Assembly (NCBI RefSeq): GCF_000421465.1
Contig: NZ_ATXB01000002.1
Location: 486,690 to 550,689, forward strand
Length of the DNA stretch: 64,000 bases
DNA from: Methylohalobius crimeensis 10Ki
GTDB taxonomy: Bacteria; Pseudomonadota; Gammaproteobacteria; Methylococcales; Methylothermaceae
Reading direction: 5' to 3'
In this document: positions 7,632-58,669 of the stretch, piece by piece
How the letters are laid out: each line of letters starts with the position of its first letter
Position numbering within the stretch: position 1 is the stretch's first letter
The notes under the pieces: generated by a model
What the model was told of the DNA's origin: nothing
Database searches by the model: none
The model's input: the letters and a program-made list of their open reading frames with translations, nothing else
Program-made: the position numbers and the translations under genes

Positions 7632-9122
7632 ATGCGCTACATCCTGGCATTGGATCAAGGCACCACCAGTTCCCGGGCCATCGTCTGCGACCGGGGCGGC
7701 GGGATTCGCGCGCTGGCGCAAAAGGAGTTTCCGCAATACTTTCCTCGCTCGGGCTGGGTGGAGCACGATCCCGAGGAGATTTGGTCCTCGCAACGCCAGG
7801 TGGCCCGGGAGGCGCTGGCAAAGGCCGGACTCCGCGCCGAAGACATCGCCGCCGTGGGCATCGCCAACCAGCGGGAAACCACACTGATTTGGGATCGAGC
7901 GACTGGCGAACCCATCCACAACGCCATCGTCTGGCAGGACCGGCGTACTGCCGGATTGTGCGACCGGCTCCGCAAGGACGGGGTCGAACCCGTGTTCCAG
8001 CGCAAGACGGGGCTGATACTGGACCCTTACTTTGCCGGCAGCAAAATCAGATGGCTGCTGGATCATGTGCCCGGCGCCCGTCGGCGGGCCGAGGCCGGCG
8101 AGCTGGCCTTCGGCACGGTGGACAGCTGGCTGGTTTGGAAATTCACCCAGGGCCGCAGCCACTGCACCGACGTGACCAACGCCAGCCGAACCTTGCTCTA
8201 CAACATCCACACGGGCGATTGGGACGAGGAATTGCTCCGTCTATTGGAGGTTCCCCGGGAGTTGTTGCCCGAAGTGCGCGCCAGCAGCGAGGTGTATGCC
8301 GAAACCTCCAGGGAAATATTCTCCCGCTCCCTGCCCATCGCCGGGATCGCCGGCGACCAGCAGGCGGCCCTGTTCGGACAAATTTGCACCGAACCGGGCC
8401 TGGCCAAGAACACCTACGGCACGGGCTGCTTCGTACTGCTCCACACCGGCGACCGGCCGGTGGTTTCCAAGCAAAATCTTCTGACCACGGTGGCCTGGAA
8501 AATCGGGGACCGCACCGACTACGCCCTGGAAGGCAGCGTGTTTATCGCCGGGGCGGTAGTGCATTGGCTGCGCGATCAACTGGGTTTCATCCGCCGTTCG
8601 GAGGACGTGGAAAGCCTGGCCGACCGGGTGGCAGACAGCGGCGGGGTCTACCTGGTGCCGGCCTTCGCCGGTTTGGGCGCGCCGCACTGGGACCCCTATG
8701 CCCGGGGGGCGCTGGTGGGGATCTCGCGCGGCACCGGTGCCGCCCACATCGCCCGGGCGGCGCTGGAGAGCATCGCCCATCAATCGGTCGATGTGATCCG
8801 AGCCATGGAGGCCGATGCCGGCCTGGGGCTGTCCGAACTGCGGGTGGACGGCGGCGCGGCGCGAAACGATCTGCTCATGCAGCTTCAAGCCGATCTTTTG
8901 GGGGTGCCGGTGGTGCGCCCCCGGCTACTGGAAACCACCGCGCTGGGAGCGGCCTATCTGGCCGGTCTCGCGGTGAACTATTGGAAGGACACCCGGGAAA
9001 TCGCCGCTCATTGGGAACAAGAGCGTGTTTTCATGCCTCGATTGGACAGCGAACGAGTCGCCGAATTAAGGGCGGGATGGAACAAGGCGCTGCAGCGCGC
9101 CAAGGCTTGGACCGACACTTAG
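7632..9122 (+). CDS. glpK: Glycerol kinase
   Basis: 496 residues; ATG 7632 is preceded by a clear GAAGAGGAAT ribosome site. The FGGY family signatures are present: DQGTTSSR at residues 8-15, [41 protein letters not shown] and VDGGAARND. It phosphorylates glycerol to sn-glycerol-3-phosphate using ATP in the cytoplasm. glpD follows after 39 bases, so the two steps from glycerol to dihydroxyacetone phosphate are probably co-expressed. No glpF facilitator or GlpR is present nearby. Confidence 0.97.
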
Positions 9123-9161
9123 CAATTGGAAAGGCGTTAAACAGGAAAATAGAAGAAGATC

Positions 9162-10745
9162 ATGAATCGATCGGCCACTTTGGAGCGACTGCGCAGCGAA
9201 ACCGCCCCCTGGGACGTGGTGGTGATCGGCGGCGGCGCCACCGGATTGGGGGTGGCGGTGGATGCGGCTTCAAGAGGCTATCGCACCGCTCTTTTGGAGC
9301 AACACGATTTCGCCAAGGGCACGTCCAGCCGCAGTACCAAGCTGATCCACGGCGGCGTGCGCTATCTGCGCCAGGGCGATCTCCAACTGGTCCGCGAGTC
9401 GTTGCACGAGCGCGCCGTGTTGCTGGCCAATGCCCCTCACCTGGTGACGCCGCTCGGCTTCGTGATGCCCGCTTACCGTTGGTGGCAACAAGCGTATTAC
9501 GCGGCGGGACTCAAGCTCTACGATCTGCTGGCGGGTCGACGCAATATCGCTCCGTCGGGTCGGTTGTCGAGGTCGGAGACGCTCGATTACCTGCCCACGC
9601 TGCAATCCTCCCACTTGCGCGGCGGCGTGCTGTATTTCGACGCCCAGTTCGACGACGCGCGCCTGGCGGTGACGCTGGCGCGCACCGCGGCCGATCGCGG
9701 TGCGGCGGTGGCGAATTACACGAGGGTGACGGGCCTTCGCAAAGCCAACGGCCGGATCAAGGGGGTGGATGCCGTGGACGAGGAAACGGGGGAGACGTTC
9801 GCCATCCCGGCCAAGACCGTGGTCAACGCCACCGGCGTATTCTCCGATACGGTGCGCCGCTTGGACGATCCCCGAGCTCGTCCGATGATCGCCCCCAGCC
9901 GAGGGGTGCATCTGGTATTGCCGAAGCGGTTTCTGCCCGGTGAAAACGCCCTATTGATCCCGCGCACCGACGATGGTCGCGTCCTCTTCGCCATTCCCTG
10001 GCAAGACCGGGTGGTGGTGGGCACCACCGACGTGCCCGTAAAGCGACCTTCCCTGGAACCGCCCTCTTCCCGGCAAGAATGGGAGTATTTGCTGACCCAC
10101 GCCCGGCGCTACCTCACGAATCCGCCCACCGAATCGGACGTATTGAGCACCTTCGCCGGCCTGCGTCCGCTGGTCAAGGCGGACGGAAACACAAGCACCG
10201 CCGCCTTGTCGCGCGATCACACCCTGCTGGCGTCCCCCTCGGGCCTGGTGACCATCGCCGGCGGCAAATGGACCACCTATCGCAAAATGGCCCGGGACAC
10301 GGTGGATCGTTTGATTGAACTGGGACCGCTGCCGCCGGCCCATTGCGTCACCGAGAAACTGCGCCTGCACGGCTGGACGGACCGGCCTTTGCCCGAAGGG
10401 CATCGGCGCGAGTATGGGGCGGACGCCGATGCCATACGGCAATTGATCGAGACGCCCGATAAGGAAACCTTGCTCCATCCCCACCTCCCCTATCGACTTG
10501 CGGAAGTCCGCTGGGCGGTACGCTTAGAAATGGCCCGCACCGTCGAGGACGTCCTCGCCCGCCGCACGCGCGCCCTGCTGCTCGACGCCCGGGCCAGCGC
10601 AGAGGCCGCTCCTATGGTAGCTCGGGTGATGGCTGAGGAACTGAGTCGCGATGCCGCTTGGATCCAAGCGCAAATCCAAGTGTTTCAGCGCTTGGCGAAA
10701 AGCTATCTGATTGTGCCGAACCGCTCCCGCCCAAAAACCGACTAA
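9162..10745 (+). CDS. glpD: Aerobic glycerol-3-phosphate dehydrogenase
   Basis: 527 residues. The N-terminal FAD-binding motif VVVIGGGATGLGVAVDAASR and the family signature KGTSSRSTKLIHGGVRYL are intact, followed by FAIPWQDRVVVGTTD, GLRPLV and IAGGKWTTYRKMA. The enzyme oxidises glycerol-3-phosphate to dihydroxyacetone phosphate at the inner membrane and passes electrons to quinone. The length fits GlpD (about 500 residues). It is downstream of glpK in the same probable operon; the C-terminal helical domain (VRWAVRLEMARTVEDVLARR) is complete. Confidence 0.96.
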   Translation: MNRSATLERLRSETAPWDVVVIGGGATGLGVAVDAASRGYRTALLEQHDFAKGTSSRSTKLIHGGVRYLRQGDLQLVRESLHERAVLLANAPHLVTPLGFVMPAYRWWQQAYYAAGLKLYDLLAGRRNIAPSGRLSRSETLDYLPTLQSSHLRGGVLYFDAQFDDARLAVTLARTAADRGAAVANYTRVTGLRKANGRIKGVDAVDEETGETFAIPAKTVVNATGVFSDTVRRLDDPRARPMIAPSRGVHLVLPKRFLPGENALLIPRTDDGRVLFAIPWQDRVVVGTTDVPVKRPSLEPPSSRQEWEYLLTHARRYLTNPPTESDVLSTFAGLRPLVKADGNTSTAALSRDHTLLASPSGLVTIAGGKWTTYRKMARDTVDRLIELGPLPPAHCVTEKLRLHGWTDRPLPEGHRREYGADADAIRQLIETPDKETLLHPHLPYRLAEVRWAVRLEMARTVEDVLARRTRALLLDARASAEAAPMVARVMAEELSRDAAWIQAQIQVFQRLAKSYLIVPNRSRPKTD

Positions 10746-50668: not shown

Positions 50669-53326
50669 TTAACCTTTTTTCTGTCCGATAGCCATCGGAA
50701 TATCCATTTCCTCCCAAGGTCGCGGAATCTTAACGGCATCACCCTGAGCATAATCCACTCCGAGCTCTTGTAACACTTCAAGAATCGATTCACTGTCCGC
50801 GCACTGCCCCACCGTCTGAATACCCATCGCATGAGCGGCTTGGTTGATCGCTTCGGCGACGGCCTGTTTGGTCGGGTCTTCAGCCAGGTTTTGGATAAAA
50901 CTGCCATCCAATTTCAAAAAATCCACCGTCAACGTTTTCAGATGGTCGAAGGAGGCGATGACACTGTTGAAATTCTTGATGATGAATAAGCAACCAAGCG
51001 CTTTGAGCTCCTGGATGGATTGCCGGGCTTGATTCAGATGGGTGAGTGTGGCGGATTCGACGATTTCGAAACACAACGCAGGGGCGGGGGCTCCGTGCAC
51101 AGTGAGCAATTGCCGAACAAATTCAATGAAGTGGTCTTCGGTCAACGACGCAATGGATAGATTGACCGCATAGACGGGCAAACTGTCCGGCGCGGTCTGG
51201 CGATGCTTTTCCGCGATGTGGGCGACGACTTTGCGCAGCACCCAACGGTCGATGGCCGGCACCAGATGATAGCGCTCCGCCACCGGCATAAATGCCCCGG
51301 GATCGACCAGGCTGCCGTCTTTCTCCACTAAGCGAAGCAGAATTTCATAGTGCGGTCGACCAGTCGCCCGAGCAAGGCGGCTGACGGGTTGATAATAAAG
51401 GCGGAAGCGATCTTCATCCATGGTCCGGGTAAGACGCGCCACCCACTCTCTCTGGGCTCGCTGCTCGGCAATTCCGGCATCATGCGGTTTGAACACATGC
51501 ACGCGGCTGCGCCCTTTTTCCTTGGCCATATAGCAAGCTGCATCGGCGGCGCTGAGAATGGAAGCAATATCGCCGTTTCTCAGCGCCGCCACCCCGATGC
51601 TTACACCTACCGGAAAGGTCTTGTCTTCCCAGGTGAAATGGAAGTTCCGCACGATTTCGCAAAGCTCGATGGCAAGACTCCGGGCTTGGTCGAGCGAACA
51701 GTGTTCGAGCAGCAAGGCAAACTCGTCCCCTCCCAATCGTGCCAACGTATCACGCTGACGCAGCTTGGACTGAAGTAGGGCACTGAGCGAGCGCAGCAAC
51801 TCATCGCCGGCGGCATGACCGCAGGCATCGTTGACGTACTTGAATTGATCCAGATCGAGATAGCACAGCGCATGCTCGGAGGGGGCTTCACGCGTACTAT
51901 CCAGCACTCTGGCCATGCGCCGCTCGAGCTCCGTGCGGTTGACGAGGCCGGTAAGAGGATCATGGGAAGCCTGATAGGAAAGCTGTTGAGTTAAAGCCTG
52001 AAACTCGGTCGCGTCCCGGAGCAGGAGCACCGCCCCGGTGATCCTCCCTTCCACCAGGACCGGATAGGAGGAACATTCGGCATGAAAAGAACTACCGTCC
52101 TTGCGCTGGAGCCGGTGCGTGGATCGATGCCCCCTCTGGGAGAAGAAGTCATAGCCCGCCCCCGCCTCCGCGGGGCACGTCTCCTTGTTGGCGTCACGAT
52201 AAATTTTTTGGGCGATGTCCTGCCCCAAAAACTCTTCCCGTGTATAGCCCAGCATGTCGAGAGCAGCCTCATTGATGAAGGTACAAGCACCTTCGGTATC
52301 GAGCCCCAAAATACCTTCTCCGACTGAATCCAACAATAAGCGGAAGCGGGCTTCACTCTGGCGCAACGCGGTTTCCACCCGCCTGCGCTCGTAAAGTTCA
52401 CGATCCAGGTTGGTATTGGCGGCTTTTAGAATTTCACTCTGTTTTTCCAACTGGGTCGTGCGCTGGGCCACCAAATCCTCGAGGCGCCGGCGGTAATATT
52501 CCAACTCTTGTTCGGTTTCCTTGTCTTCCGTGATATCCACGAGAACGCCTTGTAAAAAAAGCGGCAGGTCCGCTTCGTCGCACACCACATTCCCTTCGTC
52601 CAGAAACCAGCGCGCCCGTCCATCCCGCGTCAAGAGCCGGTATTCGCGGCGCAGCGCAACATGCTGCTCACAGGTTTTGGCGTAGGCTTCGATCACGCGC
52701 TCGCGGTCGTCCGGATGAATCCGATTGAGCAGCCCGTCCGGCTCGTCGAACCATTTTTCAAAGGGGAATCCCAACTGTTGAATCTGGGGATTGATGTACA
52801 GTAGTTTTCCCGGCGTCTCGAGCGAAGCGATATAAGTGATGGCCGGAATTTGCTCCACCAAAGTACGATACTTGGCTTCGGCCTCGCGTAGCCGTTTCTC
52901 GGCCGCCACCTTTTCCTGGATAATTCGCTGTTCGCGCAGCATCCGAATGACAGCGGCCGGAAGCCACTGCAGGAACGCCTGCTCCGCATCCTTGACCAAA
53001 TAATCGCGCGCGCCGCGCTTCAGTGCTTCCACCGCGACCTGGGCACTGTCCGTACCGGTCAACATCACCACGGGTATCGGCAGCTCACCGTTTTCCTCGA
53101 CAAGCTCGGCGAGAAATTCCACGCCGCTAAAATCCGGCAAACGGTGGTCGAGCACGATGCAATCGAGCCGCTCGTTACGGGCGAGTTCGAGCCCCTGCCT
53201 GCCGGTTTCGGCCTCCAGAATCACATACTGGTTAGTTGCGTCTTGTGCCAGAGCTCGCCGGCAGGCCAGGCGGTCGACTCGATCGTCGTCCACCAGCAGC
53301 AAGCGGATGATCGGAATGTTGGACAT
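50669..53326 (-). CDS. REC-PAS-PAS-GGDEF-EAL signalling protein with degenerate EAL
   Basis: 885 residues from ATG 53326 (GGAG 8 bases upstream; GTG 53335 overlaps the previous stop). Receiver domain with VLDHRLPDFSG and YLVKDAE, two PAS domains (YRTLVEQIPAITYIASLETP; RFRLLLDSVGEGILGLDTEG), an intact diguanylate cyclase (RLGGDEFALLL) and an EAL fold. In the EAL half the signature reads EIL, the metal-binding DDFGTG motif reads KNFNSV near residue 785, and the later Glu-containing AEGVE reads TVGQC, so phosphodiesterase activity is unlikely. Probably makes c-di-GMP when its receiver is phosphorylated and uses the EAL as a binding module. Last gene of the BLUF operon. Confidence 0.9.
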   Translation of the reverse strand: MSNIPIIRLLLVDDDRVDRLACRRALAQDATNQYVILEAETGRQGLELARNERLDCIVLDHRLPDFSGVEFLAELVEENGELPIPVVMLTGTDSAQVAVEALKRGARDYLVKDAEQAFLQWLPAAVIRMLREQRIIQEKVAAEKRLREAEAKYRTLVEQIPAITYIASLETPGKLLYINPQIQQLGFPFEKWFDEPDGLLNRIHPDDRERVIEAYAKTCEQHVALRREYRLLTRDGRARWFLDEGNVVCDEADLPLFLQGVLVDITEDKETEQELEYYRRRLEDLVAQRTTQLEKQSEILKAANTNLDRELYERRRVETALRQSEARFRLLLDSVGEGILGLDTEGACTFINEAALDMLGYTREEFLGQDIAQKIYRDANKETCPAEAGAGYDFFSQRGHRSTHRLQRKDGSSFHAECSSYPVLVEGRITGAVLLLRDATEFQALTQQLSYQASHDPLTGLVNRTELERRMARVLDSTREAPSEHALCYLDLDQFKYVNDACGHAAGDELLRSLSALLQSKLRQRDTLARLGGDEFALLLEHCSLDQARSLAIELCEIVRNFHFTWEDKTFPVGVSIGVAALRNGDIASILSAADAACYMAKEKGRSRVHVFKPHDAGIAEQRAQREWVARLTRTMDEDRFRLYYQPVSRLARATGRPHYEILLRLVEKDGSLVDPGAFMPVAERYHLVPAIDRWVLRKVVAHIAEKHRQTAPDSLPVYAVNLSIASLTEDHFIEFVRQLLTVHGAPAPALCFEIVESATLTHLNQARQSIQELKALGCLFIIKNFNSVIASFDHLKTLTVDFLKLDGSFIQNLAEDPTKQAVAEAINQAAHAMGIQTVGQCADSESILEVLQELGVDYAQGDAVKIPRPWEEMDIPMAIGQKKG

Positions 53327-53331
53327 GGCGT

Positions 53332-53748
53332 TCACTCCGGTAATTCACTGAGGGTCCAGTAAACATCGATGGTGCGTATCGTCTCGACAAATTGTCCATA
53401 GTCCACGGGCTTGCGCATATAGCCGGCCACCCCGAGATCAAAACTTTCTACTTTGTCTTCCTGCTCCTCGGATGTGGTGAGCACAACGACCGGAAGATAC
53501 CTTAACTCCGGGTCCGCTTTGATCGCGCGCAAAAATTCGATGCCATTCATGATGGGCATGTTGAGATCGAGCAAGAGAATACAGGGTCGCTCCTTGCTTG
53601 GATCGCTTAGATAAACGAGCGCCTCCTCACCGTGCTCCACATGCGCCAGGGGATTGCCCACGTGCAATTCCTTGAGAGCGCGCCGGACAGTCATGGCATC
53701 CACTTGATCGTCTTCGATTAACAGAATGGGTTTGGTTTTCAATCGCAT
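53332..53748 (-). CDS. Single-domain response regulator
   Basis: 138 residues from Met53748, Rcp1-like receiver only: acidic pair ILLIEDDQVD, phospho-acceptor Asp in ILLLDLNMPIMNGIEFL, VVLTTS and MRKPVDYGQF. No output domain. Between the kinase (2 bases away) and the GGDEF-EAL protein, so a phosphorelay or shuttle from the kinase to partners is likely. Confidence 0.92.
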   Translation of the reverse strand: MRLKTKPILLIEDDQVDAMTVRRALKELHVGNPLAHVEHGEEALVYLSDPSKERPCILLLDLNMPIMNGIEFLRAIKADPELRYLPVVVLTTSEEQEDKVESFDLGVAGYMRKPVDYGQFVETIRTIDVYWTLSELPE

Positions 53749-53750
53749 GA

Positions 53751-54854
53751 TCACTTTTGTTTTGGGAGTGTTTCGGGGATTCTTTTCGGCAAGGTAAAGA
53801 AAAAGGTGGTGCCTTGACCGACAGCGGATTCGACCCAAACACGGCCTTCGAATTGTTCGGCGATCTTCTTGACAATCGCAAGCCCCACACCTGTACTCTC
53901 CACCCGATCTCGCGGATTCAAGGTCTGGAATAGATGGAAAATGCGGTCGAAATGACGCGACTCGATCCCCGGGCCGTTGTCCGCCACGCTGAACCGCCAA
54001 CTTTCGCCTTGGTCGGCCCAATCAATTCGAATCCGTCCCCGGGGCTTGTCCATGAAGCGGAGCGCATTGGCGATGAGGTTCTGGAACAACTGTTGGATTC
54101 GGATCTTTTCCGCCCGGATCGTCGGCATATCGGCGGCGACGGTGACAGTGACGTGGGCGGGCGGCGCCAGCGAATCGATCACTTCGTGCACCAATTCGTT
54201 GAGATCGACCGCGACCTGCGCTTCATGGATTCGTCCGATGCGAGAATACCGCAATACGCCGTCGATCAGGGCATCCATGCGCCGTACCCTTTGGATGAGC
54301 AAACGCAGATGCTCCTGCCCTTCGGCGTCGAGACGTTCTTTCTGATCGGTAGCGATCCAGTCGGCCAGCGAGCCGATGGCGCGCAAGGGTGCCTTGAGAT
54401 CATGGGAAACCACATGAGCGAAGTTCTTGAGCTCTTCGTTGGCGATTTCCAAATCGTGGATCAAGTGTGCCTGCTCGCGTGCCTTTTCCGCCTCCAACCG
54501 TTTGCGCTCAGTGACATCATACACCGTCGCCAGTACCAAACCGCTATCCATGGGGCTGAGACTCACGTCCGCAGCGAACTCGTTTCCGTCTTTGCGCAAG
54601 CCATAAATATCGAGCCCGGCGCCCATGGTGCGGCTTTTGGGTCGCACGGCGAATTCGGCACGCCTTGCGCTATGGGTTGCGCGAAATCGCCGGGGAATCA
54701 TGTCTTCGAGCGTGAGCTCCAAGAATTCATCCAAGGTATAACCGAACAATCGTTCGGCGGCGGGATTGGCAAACAGAAGTCTACCGTCGGGAGCGACGAG
54801 AAGCATCGCATCCGCGGCGATTTCCAGTAACTCGCGGAGACTTTTCTTCTCCAA
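53751..54854 (-). CDS. PAS-domain sensor histidine kinase
   Basis: 367 residues if TTG 54854 is the start; no ATG is suitable. One PAS domain (ELLEIAADAMLLVAPDGRLL, FGYTLDEFLELTLEDMIPRR, ATVYDVTERKRLEAEKAREQ), phosphorylation box NFAHVVSHDLKAPLRAIGSL, N box LFQNLIANALRFMD and G boxes VADNGPGIE and STGVGLAIVKKI. Cytoplasmic with no membrane helix, similar to phytochrome-like kinases. 32 bases after the BLUF gene, from which its signal may come. Confidence 0.9.
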   Translation of the reverse strand: MEKKSLRELLEIAADAMLLVAPDGRLLFANPAAERLFGYTLDEFLELTLEDMIPRRFRATHSARRAEFAVRPKSRTMGAGLDIYGLRKDGNEFAADVSLSPMDSGLVLATVYDVTERKRLEAEKAREQAHLIHDLEIANEELKNFAHVVSHDLKAPLRAIGSLADWIATDQKERLDAEGQEHLRLLIQRVRRMDALIDGVLRYSRIGRIHEAQVAVDLNELVHEVIDSLAPPAHVTVTVAADMPTIRAEKIRIQQLFQNLIANALRFMDKPRGRIRIDWADQGESWRFSVADNGPGIESRHFDRIFHLFQTLNPRDRVESTGVGLAIVKKIAEQFEGRVWVESAVGQGTTFFFTLPKRIPETLPKQK

Positions 54855-54886: not shown

Positions 54887-55759
54887 TTATTCCTCCATTT
54901 CCTCGGTATTTTCATCGACCCTTCCAAGGAGCCAATAAGTGATCCCGAGCGCCAACACCACTACCCCGGTCGCGGCCACGAATGGCCAATCGATGATTTT
55001 GAAATCCAGCACGATCACTTTCCGGGAAACGGCCATCAACGCGGTCGCCACCACCAAGCGAACCGGGATCACATCGGTGCGCAAATAAAGCGTAATGTTG
55101 ATAAAAATCTCGATCGCGATCAATACCGCAAGAAAAGCGCCGAACACGGCAAAAATATCACTGACCTCAAGCAGAAAAAGCGGCGGCTTCGACAATCTTT
55201 GATAAAGGGTCCAAAGCACATCGAAAACACTCAGGATAATCAACCCGGTCATCAATATCGCCAGTACTCGAACCGCCCCCAGAATCGTCTTGTGCAGCAC
55301 TCGAATCAATGGATCTTCGTGCTCGGTGGGCAATTCCTCGTACCGACGCCGTTTCGTCCATTCCTGTTGAAAATGGCGGGACATGGTATCGAGAATCTGC
55401 TGCTGGCCACGCACGGTCTCCTCTTCGGTCGCCGGCTTTCCTTCAACCAAAGAAGCAAACTCCCGATCGGACAGCCTCTTGAATGCCATACCGAAATCCT
55501 CGAACTCGCGCGTGTCGATGGGAACTTTTTCGATTACCCGAACGCCGACGTGGCGGGAATCCTTTTTGATCCGCTTGAAGGTCTCTTCCACCGCTTCTCT
55601 GGAACCTTCCAAGGTCTGCAAGAACATCTTATTGCCGTAGAATAAAATGCCGGTCACGCCGCAAGCGCCATTGTTGGCGCGACTGACCGTCAGCAACCCA
55701 TCCAACTCCTGATCACTGAAGGATTGCCGCGCCTGGCTGATGTAACTGAGCCTTATCAT
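54887..55759 (-). CDS. BLUF blue-light sensor domain fused to a PsiE-type membrane domain
   Basis: 290 residues, ATG 55759 behind AGGAGGGGAATA. Residues 1-95 are a BLUF domain: Tyr6, Asn30 and Gln48 have exactly the spacing of Tyr21, Asn45 and Gln63 in AppA, and Met91 matches Met106; the semi-conserved Trp104 position is Phe89. FAD binding and photocycle residues are thus complete. A soluble linker (96-155) leads to four hydrophobic helices (VRVLAILMTGLIILSVFDVL; VFGAFLAVLIAIEIFINITL; VRLVVATALMAVSRKVIVLD; VAATGVVVLALGITYWLLGR), like the phosphate-starvation-inducible PsiE family. First gene of an operon with a kinase, a regulator and a diguanylate cyclase. The domain pairing is unusual. Confidence 0.85.
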   Translation of the reverse strand: MIRLSYISQARQSFSDQELDGLLTVSRANNGACGVTGILFYGNKMFLQTLEGSREAVEETFKRIKKDSRHVGVRVIEKVPIDTREFEDFGMAFKRLSDREFASLVEGKPATEEETVRGQQQILDTMSRHFQQEWTKRRRYEELPTEHEDPLIRVLHKTILGAVRVLAILMTGLIILSVFDVLWTLYQRLSKPPLFLLEVSDIFAVFGAFLAVLIAIEIFINITLYLRTDVIPVRLVVATALMAVSRKVIVLDFKIIDWPFVAATGVVVLALGITYWLLGRVDENTEEMEE

Positions 55760-55865
55760 TATTCCCCTCCTCCGAGCGGATCACCTCAACCCTTGACCCC
55801 GTTTCTCGGCAGTATACCATCCAGCCAATCGACAAGAGCAGGAAGCACAAACGTGAGGCACAGTG

Positions 55866-56462: not shown

Positions 56463-57215
56463 ATGTTACAGCGATTTTATTCACTCGCCGTCTTGACTCT
56501 GTCGCTTCTGATTGCGCTTCCCTTATCGGCGGCCGACCTGACCCGCAATCAGGTGGTGGCGCTTTTAGAGAAAGCCACCCCGGACCGACCCGCCGATCTC
56601 AGGCGCAAGGATCTCAAGCGCGTGGACTTGTCCGGATTGGACCTTCGCCACGCTGATTTATGGGGCGCCGACTTGCGCTACGCCAATCTCAGCCGCGCCA
56701 ACCTCGCCGGGCAAAATCTGGATCTGACCATTATGCGCGGCACCGACTTGTCTCACGCCAATTTGGAAAACGCGAGTATTTTCGGCGTAACCATGATCGG
56801 CGCCAATCTTACCGGCGTCAACCTTAGAAACAGCCGGGTCATGGCCACTTTGGACCGGGCCAAGCTGGTGGGCGCCGACATCGAAGGTTCGTTTTGGGGC
56901 GCCGACATGAAAAACCAGAGCATGGGGCTGATGCGCGCCAGCTGCAACAACGCCGATTTCACCGATGCCAATCTGAAAAACGCCGACTTCAATCGGGTCC
57001 TGCTGCGTTTCGCCAGGCTGAAAAACGCAAATATGGAGGGCATCGACCTGTTCCGTGCCGATTTGTCGGGCGCCAACCTCGCGGGAGCCAAGCTGAACAA
57101 CGCCGATCTGCGCAAGGCCAAGCTGAAACAGGCCGATTTCACCGGCGCCGAGGTAGAAGGGGCGAAATTCGAAGAAGCTGAAGGCCTTTCCTCCACCCGG
57201 GGGCTTGAACATTAA
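56463..57215 (+). CDS. Secreted pentapeptide-repeat protein
   Basis: 250 residues with a signal peptide (FYSLAVLTLSLLIALPLSAA). From residue ~48 almost every five residues fit A(D/N)LxX (DLSGLDLRHADLWGADLRYA; ANLENASIFG; ADLSGANLAGAKLNNADLRK), forming a right-handed quadrilateral beta helix of about nine coils. A periplasmic location separates it from DNA-gyrase-protecting Qnr-like members. Role unknown. 20 bases upstream of the HDOD gene, so possibly co-transcribed. Confidence 0.9.
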   Translation: MLQRFYSLAVLTLSLLIALPLSAADLTRNQVVALLEKATPDRPADLRRKDLKRVDLSGLDLRHADLWGADLRYANLSRANLAGQNLDLTIMRGTDLSHANLENASIFGVTMIGANLTGVNLRNSRVMATLDRAKLVGADIEGSFWGADMKNQSMGLMRASCNNADFTDANLKNADFNRVLLRFARLKNANMEGIDLFRADLSGANLAGAKLNNADLRKAKLKQADFTGAEVEGAKFEEAEGLSSTRGLEH

Positions 57216-57235: not shown

Positions 57236-58669
57236 ATGTCAGAGCTGAAAAAATGGGCCGGTATTATCTGTCAACAAGATCTCCCCATTTTCCGTTACAC
57301 CATTAACGCCATCAATAATATCGTATCCAACGAAGATGCATCGACGACCGAACTCGCCCAGGTCATCTTGCAAGATGCCACCCTCACCGCTCGCATTCTG
57401 AGAATCGCCAACAGCGCGACTTACAATCCTACTGCGTCGTCGATCAACACCATCAGCCGGGCGATTGTCATTCTCGGTTTCAATATGGTGCGCGATCTCA
57501 GTCTTTCGCTGGCGATCATCGACGCGCTCTTGAACCTCAAAGGCAGACAGCACGCATTTCGCTTAATGGCACGCTCGTTCCATGCCGCGGTGCAGGCCAA
57601 ATCCATCGCCGAGGAACGGGGGGACGACGCCCCCGAAGAGATTTTCATCGCCGCCTTGCTCTATTATATCGGCGAAATGGCTTTCTGGTGCGTTGCCGGG
57701 CAAGAAGGCGAAAGAATACTCCACTTGACCGACGATAAAGGTTATCCGCCGGAAATGGCGCAACGGCAAGTCTTGGGATTCACCTTCAATCAACTGACCA
57801 TCGCCCTGACTCAGGATTGGCACCTGAGCGATTTGCTGCACAGCGCCATCAACCAACCGCACCTCAAAAATCCGCGCATCAAGGACATCATCTACGGCCA
57901 CAAATTGGCCGTATCCGCGGAAAAAGGCTGGAACGCCAAAACCACACACGAATTGATCCGAACCATCGCCCCCTACCTGGGACTCGAACCCGAGAAAACC
58001 CAGGCGCATCTCTGTCATAACGCCGTCAAGGCGATGGATGTGGCAAAGCTGTTCGGCGCCTCATCCATTATCGAGTATCTGCCCATCCCTGAAAATAGCA
58101 GCGCGGAGGGAACCTCGGCCGATTGTCAGGAAGCGGAAAAATATCCATCCCCCGACCCAATCCTTCAGTTAAATATTTTGCACGACCTGTCCCGCATTCT
58201 GGAGAAACAGCCCAACATCAATCTTACCCTGGAGACGGTTCTCGAAGGCATTTATCGCGGCGTCGGCATGGATCGTACGCTGTTTGCGTTACTCACTCCG
58301 GATAAAAAGCGCATTCATGGAAAATACGCCCTCGGAGAAGACAACCAACTTTTCACCCAAAAGTTTCAGTTCGAACTCGGGCAAGTCCCATTTTTCGACT
58401 GGCTCTTCAAGCACAAAGACGCGATATGGATAAAAAACACCCAAGATCCGGAAAACCAGCCCCTTATCGTCAATCAATTACTGGAGATAATCGCCGCGCC
58501 GGCATTTTTTGCTTTTCCGTTGATTCTCAACACGACGCCCATCGGCATCGTTTACGCGGATCGGCAACCCAGTATGCGCAAACTCGACGCGGACAGTTTC
58601 GAAAGCTTCCGCCATTTTTGCATTCAGGCGAAAATGGCGATCGAATACACCTCCCTGAAAAAACGCTGA
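57236..58669 (+). CDS. HDOD-GAF domain signalling protein
   Basis: 477 residues. HDOD domain at ~10-210 (LAQVILQDATLTARILRIAN, ISRAIVILGFNMVRDLSLSL, FIAALLYYIGEMAFW), in which the catalytic HD residues are absent as is usual for HDOD. A C-terminal GAF-like domain lies at ~320-470 (ETVLEGIYRGVGMDRTLFAL, FPLILNTTPIGIVYAD). Such proteins are regulators of c-di-GMP, motility or competence networks; the partner is unknown. Confidence 0.87.
   Translation: MSELKKWAGIICQQDLPIFRYTINAINNIVSNEDASTTELAQVILQDATLTARILRIANSATYNPTASSINTISRAIVILGFNMVRDLSLSLAIIDALLNLKGRQHAFRLMARSFHAAVQAKSIAEERGDDAPEEIFIAALLYYIGEMAFWCVAGQEGERILHLTDDKGYPPEMAQRQVLGFTFNQLTIALTQDWHLSDLLHSAINQPHLKNPRIKDIIYGHKLAVSAEKGWNAKTTHELIRTIAPYLGLEPEKTQAHLCHNAVKAMDVAKLFGASSIIEYLPIPENSSAEGTSADCQEAEKYPSPDPILQLNILHDLSRILEKQPNINLTLETVLEGIYRGVGMDRTLFALLTPDKKRIHGKYALGEDNQLFTQKFQFELGQVPFFDWLFKHKDAIWIKNTQDPENQPLIVNQLLEIIAAPAFFAFPLILNTTPIGIVYADRQPSMRKLDADSFESFRHFCIQAKMAIEYTSLKKR

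Follow-up and report, generated by a model that had tools for sequence, protein, structure and literature searches.

The open reading frame at positions 54887–55759 (minus strand, stop codon included) of the window, the whole 64,000-nt stretch of Methylohalobius crimeensis DNA that was analysed, encodes a BLUF photoreceptor domain joined to a PsiE membrane domain. The ATG lies at 55759 and the stop at 54887, giving a product of 290 aa. We propose that this protein is a membrane-bound blue-light receptor that switches a photo-oxidative-stress programme, with PsiE as its effector. The proposal has, in our judgement, about an even chance of being right. No experiment supports it, and the photoactivity and the action of PsiE are unproven.

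The domain assignment rests on the reading frame, on Pfam and on 55 distinct full-length homologues. BLUF (PF04940) matched residues 1–91 of the 290 (55487–55759, minus strand), over profile positions 1–91 of 92, with E=4.3e-29 and 100.9 bits against a cut-off of 25. PsiE (PF06146) matched residues 163–280 (54920–55273, minus strand), over profile positions 3–119 of 122, with E=2.4e-35 and 121.8 bits against a cut-off of 23.9. The earlier note had likened four membrane helices in this half to PsiE, and the near full-length profile match bore this out and excluded an unrelated family. Residues 92–162 (55274–55486, minus strand) form a linker, as delimited by the alignment, AlphaFold2 and pairwise identity. 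The AlphaFold2 model of the full protein (mean pLDDT 69.5) contained a BLUF fold, a helix at residues 116–139 and then four long helices. The structure models were of only moderate confidence (pLDDT 69.5 and 78.8).

A strong Shine-Dalgarno sequence, GGAGGAGGGG, was read directly at 55764–55780 (minus strand), immediately 5' of the ATG. A scan for sigma-70 promoters gave matches no commoner than in shuffled sequences. Recurrence of the fusion across dozens of independent genomes rules out both an assembly artefact and a chance join. The fusion gene is the sole BLUF gene of the M. crimeensis genome. A second PsiE protein, distantly related and lacking BLUF, is encoded at C1:2557433. The genome also carries two pmoA/AMO genes with identical scores, and the host is therefore a methane oxidiser.

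Tyr6, Asn30, Gln48 and Met91 lie at the spacing of the AppA photocycle residues, as had been claimed before, and none of the four varied among the 55 distinct full-length fusions. The residues invariant across this set were Y6, S8, N30, G37, F46, Q48, E51, G52 and M91, followed by N221, R246 and K247 further along the protein. The position of AppA W104, the semi-conserved tryptophan of strand 5, is Phe89 in the window protein and is also phenylalanine in its relative from Methylohalobius sp. SKW56 (locus L004); it is tryptophan in the other 53 of 55. This tryptophan is found in many, not all, BLUF domains, and it is neither essential in all of them nor strictly defining.

A sequence search of the PDB matched 22 distinct BLUF sequences, the best being TePixD/Tll0078 (1x0p, E=2e-17). 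The best solved sequence relatives were TePixD, Slr1694 and AppA, and the same three were the best Foldseek matches of the predicted N-terminal fold. The sensor half of the protein is well supported by sequence; flavin binding and a photocycle are inferred.

The nearest BLUF domains, by both sequence and fold, belong to the short proteins PixD (Tll0078, Slr1694), BlrB, BlsA and PapB. Unlike the fusion, these have no membrane domain and act with soluble partners. BluF/YcgF of E. coli and BlrP1 of Klebsiella also carry BLUF at the N-terminus, with the same four residues (Tyr, Asn, Gln and Met), and are fused to a further domain at the C-terminus. That domain is a soluble EAL output, whereas the output of BLUF-PsiE is a four-helix membrane domain.

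A survey of the architecture, which the earlier note had called for, yielded the 55 distinct full-length fusions and revealed a wide but phylogenetically patchy distribution. Carriers were found in Methylococcales, Nitrospirota, Nitrospinota, Ca. Nitrotoga, one purple sulfur bacterium and one more family of non-gamma Pseudomonadota. In evenly drawn samples, full-length fusions were present in 49 of 301 genomes of the window's order, 2 of 369 Gammaproteobacteria (both of that order), 3 of 296 Nitrospirota and 3 of 77 Nitrospinota. Among 398 Pseudomonadota sampled, the non-gamma fusions came from five genomes of a single family. Scanning a single genome from each species yielded 23 fusion loci, in Methylococcales, Nitrospirales, Nitrospinota and Candidatus Nitrotoga. 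The E-value limits in these surveys were strict, and diverged fusions may have escaped.

The closest relative, that of Methylohalobius sp. SKW56, was 61% identical. The purple sulfur bacterium, Ca. Thiodictyon syntrophicum, carries its fusion on a plasmid, where it is annotated merely as 'PsiE family protein'. Two paralogous fusion genes lie near each other at locus L010 (1019–1888 and 4733–5602), and another such pair lies close together in a second genome (L150; G926:C1:4433227 and 4434377). At L015, a truncated BLUF-like frame (9068–9454) directly follows a full fusion gene and is perhaps a decayed duplicate. A BLUF protein of about 350 aa on the Curtobacterium plasmid p1 (L089) matched residues 1–184 of the window protein.

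In a tree of PsiE domains, the fusions clustered, requiring 4 changes compared with 35 when the labels were shuffled; the well-supported branches force 2. The tree was built on 148 columns and contained many weak forks and long branches. The Nitrotoga copies were nested within those of Methylococcaceae with a support of 99. This nesting points to horizontal transfer.

The four membrane helices of the PsiE half are predicted by AlphaFold2 and hydropathy only. Residues of note within it are D180, E217, N221, R246 and K247. The last three were kept in 55 of 55 fusions, and position 217 was acidic in 54 of 55. Mean pairwise identity among the fusions was 53% for BLUF, 38% for the linker, 62% for PsiE and 78% for its TM2–TM3 core. 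The linker contained the predicted helix 116–139 (AlphaFold2) and, in the alignment, a conserved H129 and a EELPTEHEDPLI motif running into TM1. Stand-alone PsiE proteins of the same sub-family showed the same invariants as the PsiE half of the fusions (alignment of 63 sequences).

We consider the PsiE half to be a working module and not a mere anchor, because it is more conserved than BLUF and retains the intramembrane invariants of free PsiE. The other possibility, that PsiE is a passive anchor, or else a further sensor responding to lipid, redox or ion state, while BLUF works through unknown soluble partners, appears improbable. Many BLUF proteins without an enzymatic output, such as BlsA and PixD, do use partners. 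However, the buried charged residues kept in 55 of 55 fusions are not needed in an anchor, and buried polar residues kept better than the sensor's own sequence are not expected of a domain that only anchors BLUF. PsiE, moreover, stands alone in many genomes and elsewhere follows a globin sensor.

The latter arrangement was found in one frame, L172 (G1044:C96:13500–16300), in which Pfam recognized a protoglobin (E=1e-28) and PsiE (E=4e-19). The globin was closest to a Geobacter globin, 2w31 (E=6e-38), which we take to be the sensor domain of the membrane-coupled globin sensor of Geobacter sulfurreducens. Like BLUF-PsiE, L172 joins a cofactor sensor to PsiE; a haem sensor replaces BLUF, and its PsiE is of another sub-family. 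PsiE thus follows two unrelated cofactor sensors and is, by inference, an output of more than one sensor type. The window protein is no member of the globin-coupled sensors with membrane output, having BLUF and no N-terminal globin, and may work alike.

L172 came from the PsiE matches of the 398 Pseudomonadota, of which eight long frames were fetched, six of them brought out by the profile. The remaining long frames were considered as sensor fusions and looked, by eye and without a Pfam scan, like read-through of upstream sequence. Only L172 looked genuine.

PsiE also occurs as a stand-alone protein in many genomes, and in the control genomes its range extended from E. coli to Bacillus and archaea. 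E. coli PsiE (b4030), the PsiE-GI protein of the tLST/LHR island, the second PsiE of the M. crimeensis genome and the globin-PsiE protein share with the fusion its Pfam family, a TM2 acid and a TM3 arginine, and little else. The first two lack a sensor domain, and PsiE-GI is only about 33% identical to the fusion's sub-family. The window protein fell below the cut-off of the NCBI equivalog model for E. coli-type PsiE (NF002763; 14.3 bits against 138), so it contains a PsiE-family domain and is not an orthologue of E. coli PsiE.

A profile search of the PDB for relatives of PsiE found none, and a Foldseek comparison of the PsiE domain with the PDB gave nothing under E=0.001 (best 0.86). The lack of a solved structure resembling PsiE in that comparison, together with the moderate confidence of the models, weakens the proposal of a light-switched effector. 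The function of PsiE is unknown in every organism, and its role as an effector is inferred from conservation and the globin parallel.

In the transmissible stress-tolerance locus (tLST), psiE-GI starts 2 bp past kefB-GI. The oxidative-stress module of tLST is needed for chlorine resistance, and its PsiE gene (orf14) is uncharacterised (PMC8290217). Genes for Kef-type K+/H+ antiporters were also seen near five stand-alone PsiE loci (L048, L052, L067, L069 and L073), which are probably related to one another; the kefB-GI/psiE-GI pair may be compared. At another locus, in Nitrosomonas nitrosa, two different PsiE-like genes are adjacent (L053:7815–8294 and 8470–8970).

The genes beside the fusions in relatives gave the link to light damage. 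A photolyase, RudS or LitR/CarH-like MerR gene was observed within about 8 kb at 26 of 44 fusion loci, but not at any of 57 similarly sized stand-alone PsiE loci. Removal of three doubly fetched loci left 25 of 41 against 0 of 57 (P=8e-13), and dropping two weak RudS matches as well left 23 of 41 (P=1e-11). Relatedness is not taken into account in these P-values, and the linkage rests on a limited set of clades, without phylogenetic correction; the clades include at least Methylothermaceae, Methylococcaceae, Nitrospirota, Nitrospinota and family f212.

The recurrent neighbours were DNA photolyase, RudS, LitR/CarH-like MerR, a Blc-type lipocalin and FAD enzymes. The RudS neighbour consists of a 2-thiouracil desulfurase domain and DUF1722. 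RudS is a tRNA s4U desulfidase, s4U is sensitive to near UV, and the enzyme has been reported from light-responsive operons (PMC11417400). At L148 (3297–9998), MerR, an unassigned gene, photolyase, RudS, a second unassigned gene, lipocalin, BLUF-PsiE and ferrochelatase follow one another on a single strand, and as far as BLUF-PsiE the genes overlap or lie only a short distance apart. L147 contains a compact light-stress run like this one. The two unassigned genes of these runs (95 and 199 aa) matched no Pfam family. In Methylohalobius sp. SKW56, the photolyase stop codon lies 27 bp upstream of BLUF-PsiE. At two methanotroph loci, genes resembling those of cytochrome bd-type oxidase were noticed by eye directly downstream of BLUF-PsiE (L010:5721–8135 and L017:9025–11411).

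A photo-oxidative-stress context is well supported by these gene sequences in the relatives, and not at the window locus, where no photolyase, RudS or LitR/CarH-type MerR gene lies beside the fusion. The neighbours seen in the relatives (MerR/LitR, photolyase and RudS) are also the gene company of the short LOV and class II LitR systems of Pseudomonas (PMC9758184) and of the LitR/RudS/photolyase light operons (PMC11417400). In the LOV/LitR systems the flavin receptor is a soluble LOV protein, whereas here it would be a BLUF domain held in the membrane.

Many fusions have a MerR regulator nearby, some with a B12 domain and others lacking one, and this raises the chief rival to our proposal. The protein may be a membrane-tethered anti-repressor, in which the lit BLUF domain or the linker sequesters a MerR/LitR-type repressor and PsiE serves as a tether or second sensor. 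There are precedents for such action, as BluF directly antagonises BluR in E. coli (PMC3509220) and a short LOV protein acts on class II LitR (PMC9758184). The fit is best at L147 and L148, where no B12 domain could be recognised in the neighbouring MerR, which would depend on a different light receptor. The neighbouring MerR proteins of Nitrospirota, Nitrospinota and Methylococcales, however, have B12 domains and could sense light alone. No MerR was found near many fusions, the window included, and this reading leaves the strong conservation of the PsiE membrane residues unexplained. We consider it unlikely.

In the window, the fusion gene heads a run of four co-directional genes on the minus strand. 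A histidine kinase with PAS, HisKA and HATPase_c domains by Pfam (53751–54854) lies 32 bp downstream and is a putative operon partner in this genome only. It is followed, after about 2 bp, by a single-domain response regulator (53332–53748; Response_reg 1.1e-18), whose ATG at about 53748 is inferred. The start of a REC-PAS-PAS-GGDEF-EAL protein (50669–53335, domains by Pfam) overlaps the regulator stop by 4 bp. On the other side, genes for a pentapeptide-repeat protein (56463–57215) and an HDOD-GAF protein (57236–58669) lie on the plus strand and point away from BLUF-PsiE.

Such close spacing would suit a circuit in which BLUF-PsiE feeds the adjoining kinase, regulator and GGDEF-EAL protein in this organism, with blue light thereby controlling c-di-GMP and lifestyle. 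The BLUF-EAL proteins indicate that BLUF can act on c-di-GMP. We give this little credence, as the kinase carries a PAS input itself, there is no evidence that the proteins touch one another and the neighbourhood is absent beside every other BLUF-PsiE gene examined. For the last reason the three genes were also rejected as a conserved partner set. Their presence in place of a photolyase weakens the reading of the fusion as a switch of the light-stress programme. The photolyase of this genome lies elsewhere, at C1:1285134, close to two genes for FAD enzymes; on visual comparison these look like the ones next to the photolyase of strain SKW56. The BLUF-PsiE gene thus seems to have moved or been inserted separately in this genome, since its photolyase and these FAD-enzyme genes sit elsewhere.

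The proposed light-switched effector would operate as follows. FAD in the N-terminal, cytoplasmic BLUF domain would absorb blue light, which would rearrange the hydrogen-bond network of Tyr6, Gln48 and the flavin. Met91 might relay the change to the helix after the domain (about residues 116–139), probably within a dimer, and the four-helix PsiE domain, seated in the inner membrane, would thereby change its activity. PsiE may then protect the inner membrane or tune the ion or proton balance when light makes reactive oxygen. It would act through the buried acid-arginine pair E217/R246, common to all PsiE types examined. The domains, the residues, their conservation and, in relatives, the linkage to light-damage genes were observed. 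The rest of the scheme is inferred, namely the binding of flavin, the photocycle, the topology, the dimer, which way the switch works and the action of PsiE.

A wider and more tentative possibility is that PsiE is a general membrane effector, switched by BLUF in response to blue light or by protoglobin in response to O2 or NO. BLUF-PsiE would be its natural light-gated form, perhaps acting on proton or potassium balance with Kef-type antiporters.

The earlier note was aware of no characterised BLUF protein whose output is of this kind, and the open-licence literature searched agreed. Papers containing both BLUF and PsiE were chance co-occurrences, none relevant by title or abstract. Searches of the same literature for BLUF in methanotrophs or nitrite oxidisers likewise gave nothing relevant by title or abstract. 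Both domain families are known. We came across no description of the two joined in the open papers searched, although proteins of this build are already present in public annotation, named after only one of their domains.

Those papers describe BLUF outputs that are soluble, whereas that of BLUF-PsiE is membrane-borne; it recurs in different phyla, chiefly among methane oxidisers and nitrite-oxidiser lineages. Whether light inhibits methane oxidation, as has been suggested, is debated (PMC7474682). Light sensing by non-phototrophic methanotrophs has been little studied. With PsiE under a natural light switch, the function of this family, including its member in a mobile stress-resistance island, could be probed with a clean on/off handle, and the protein is possibly a new membrane actuator for optogenetics.
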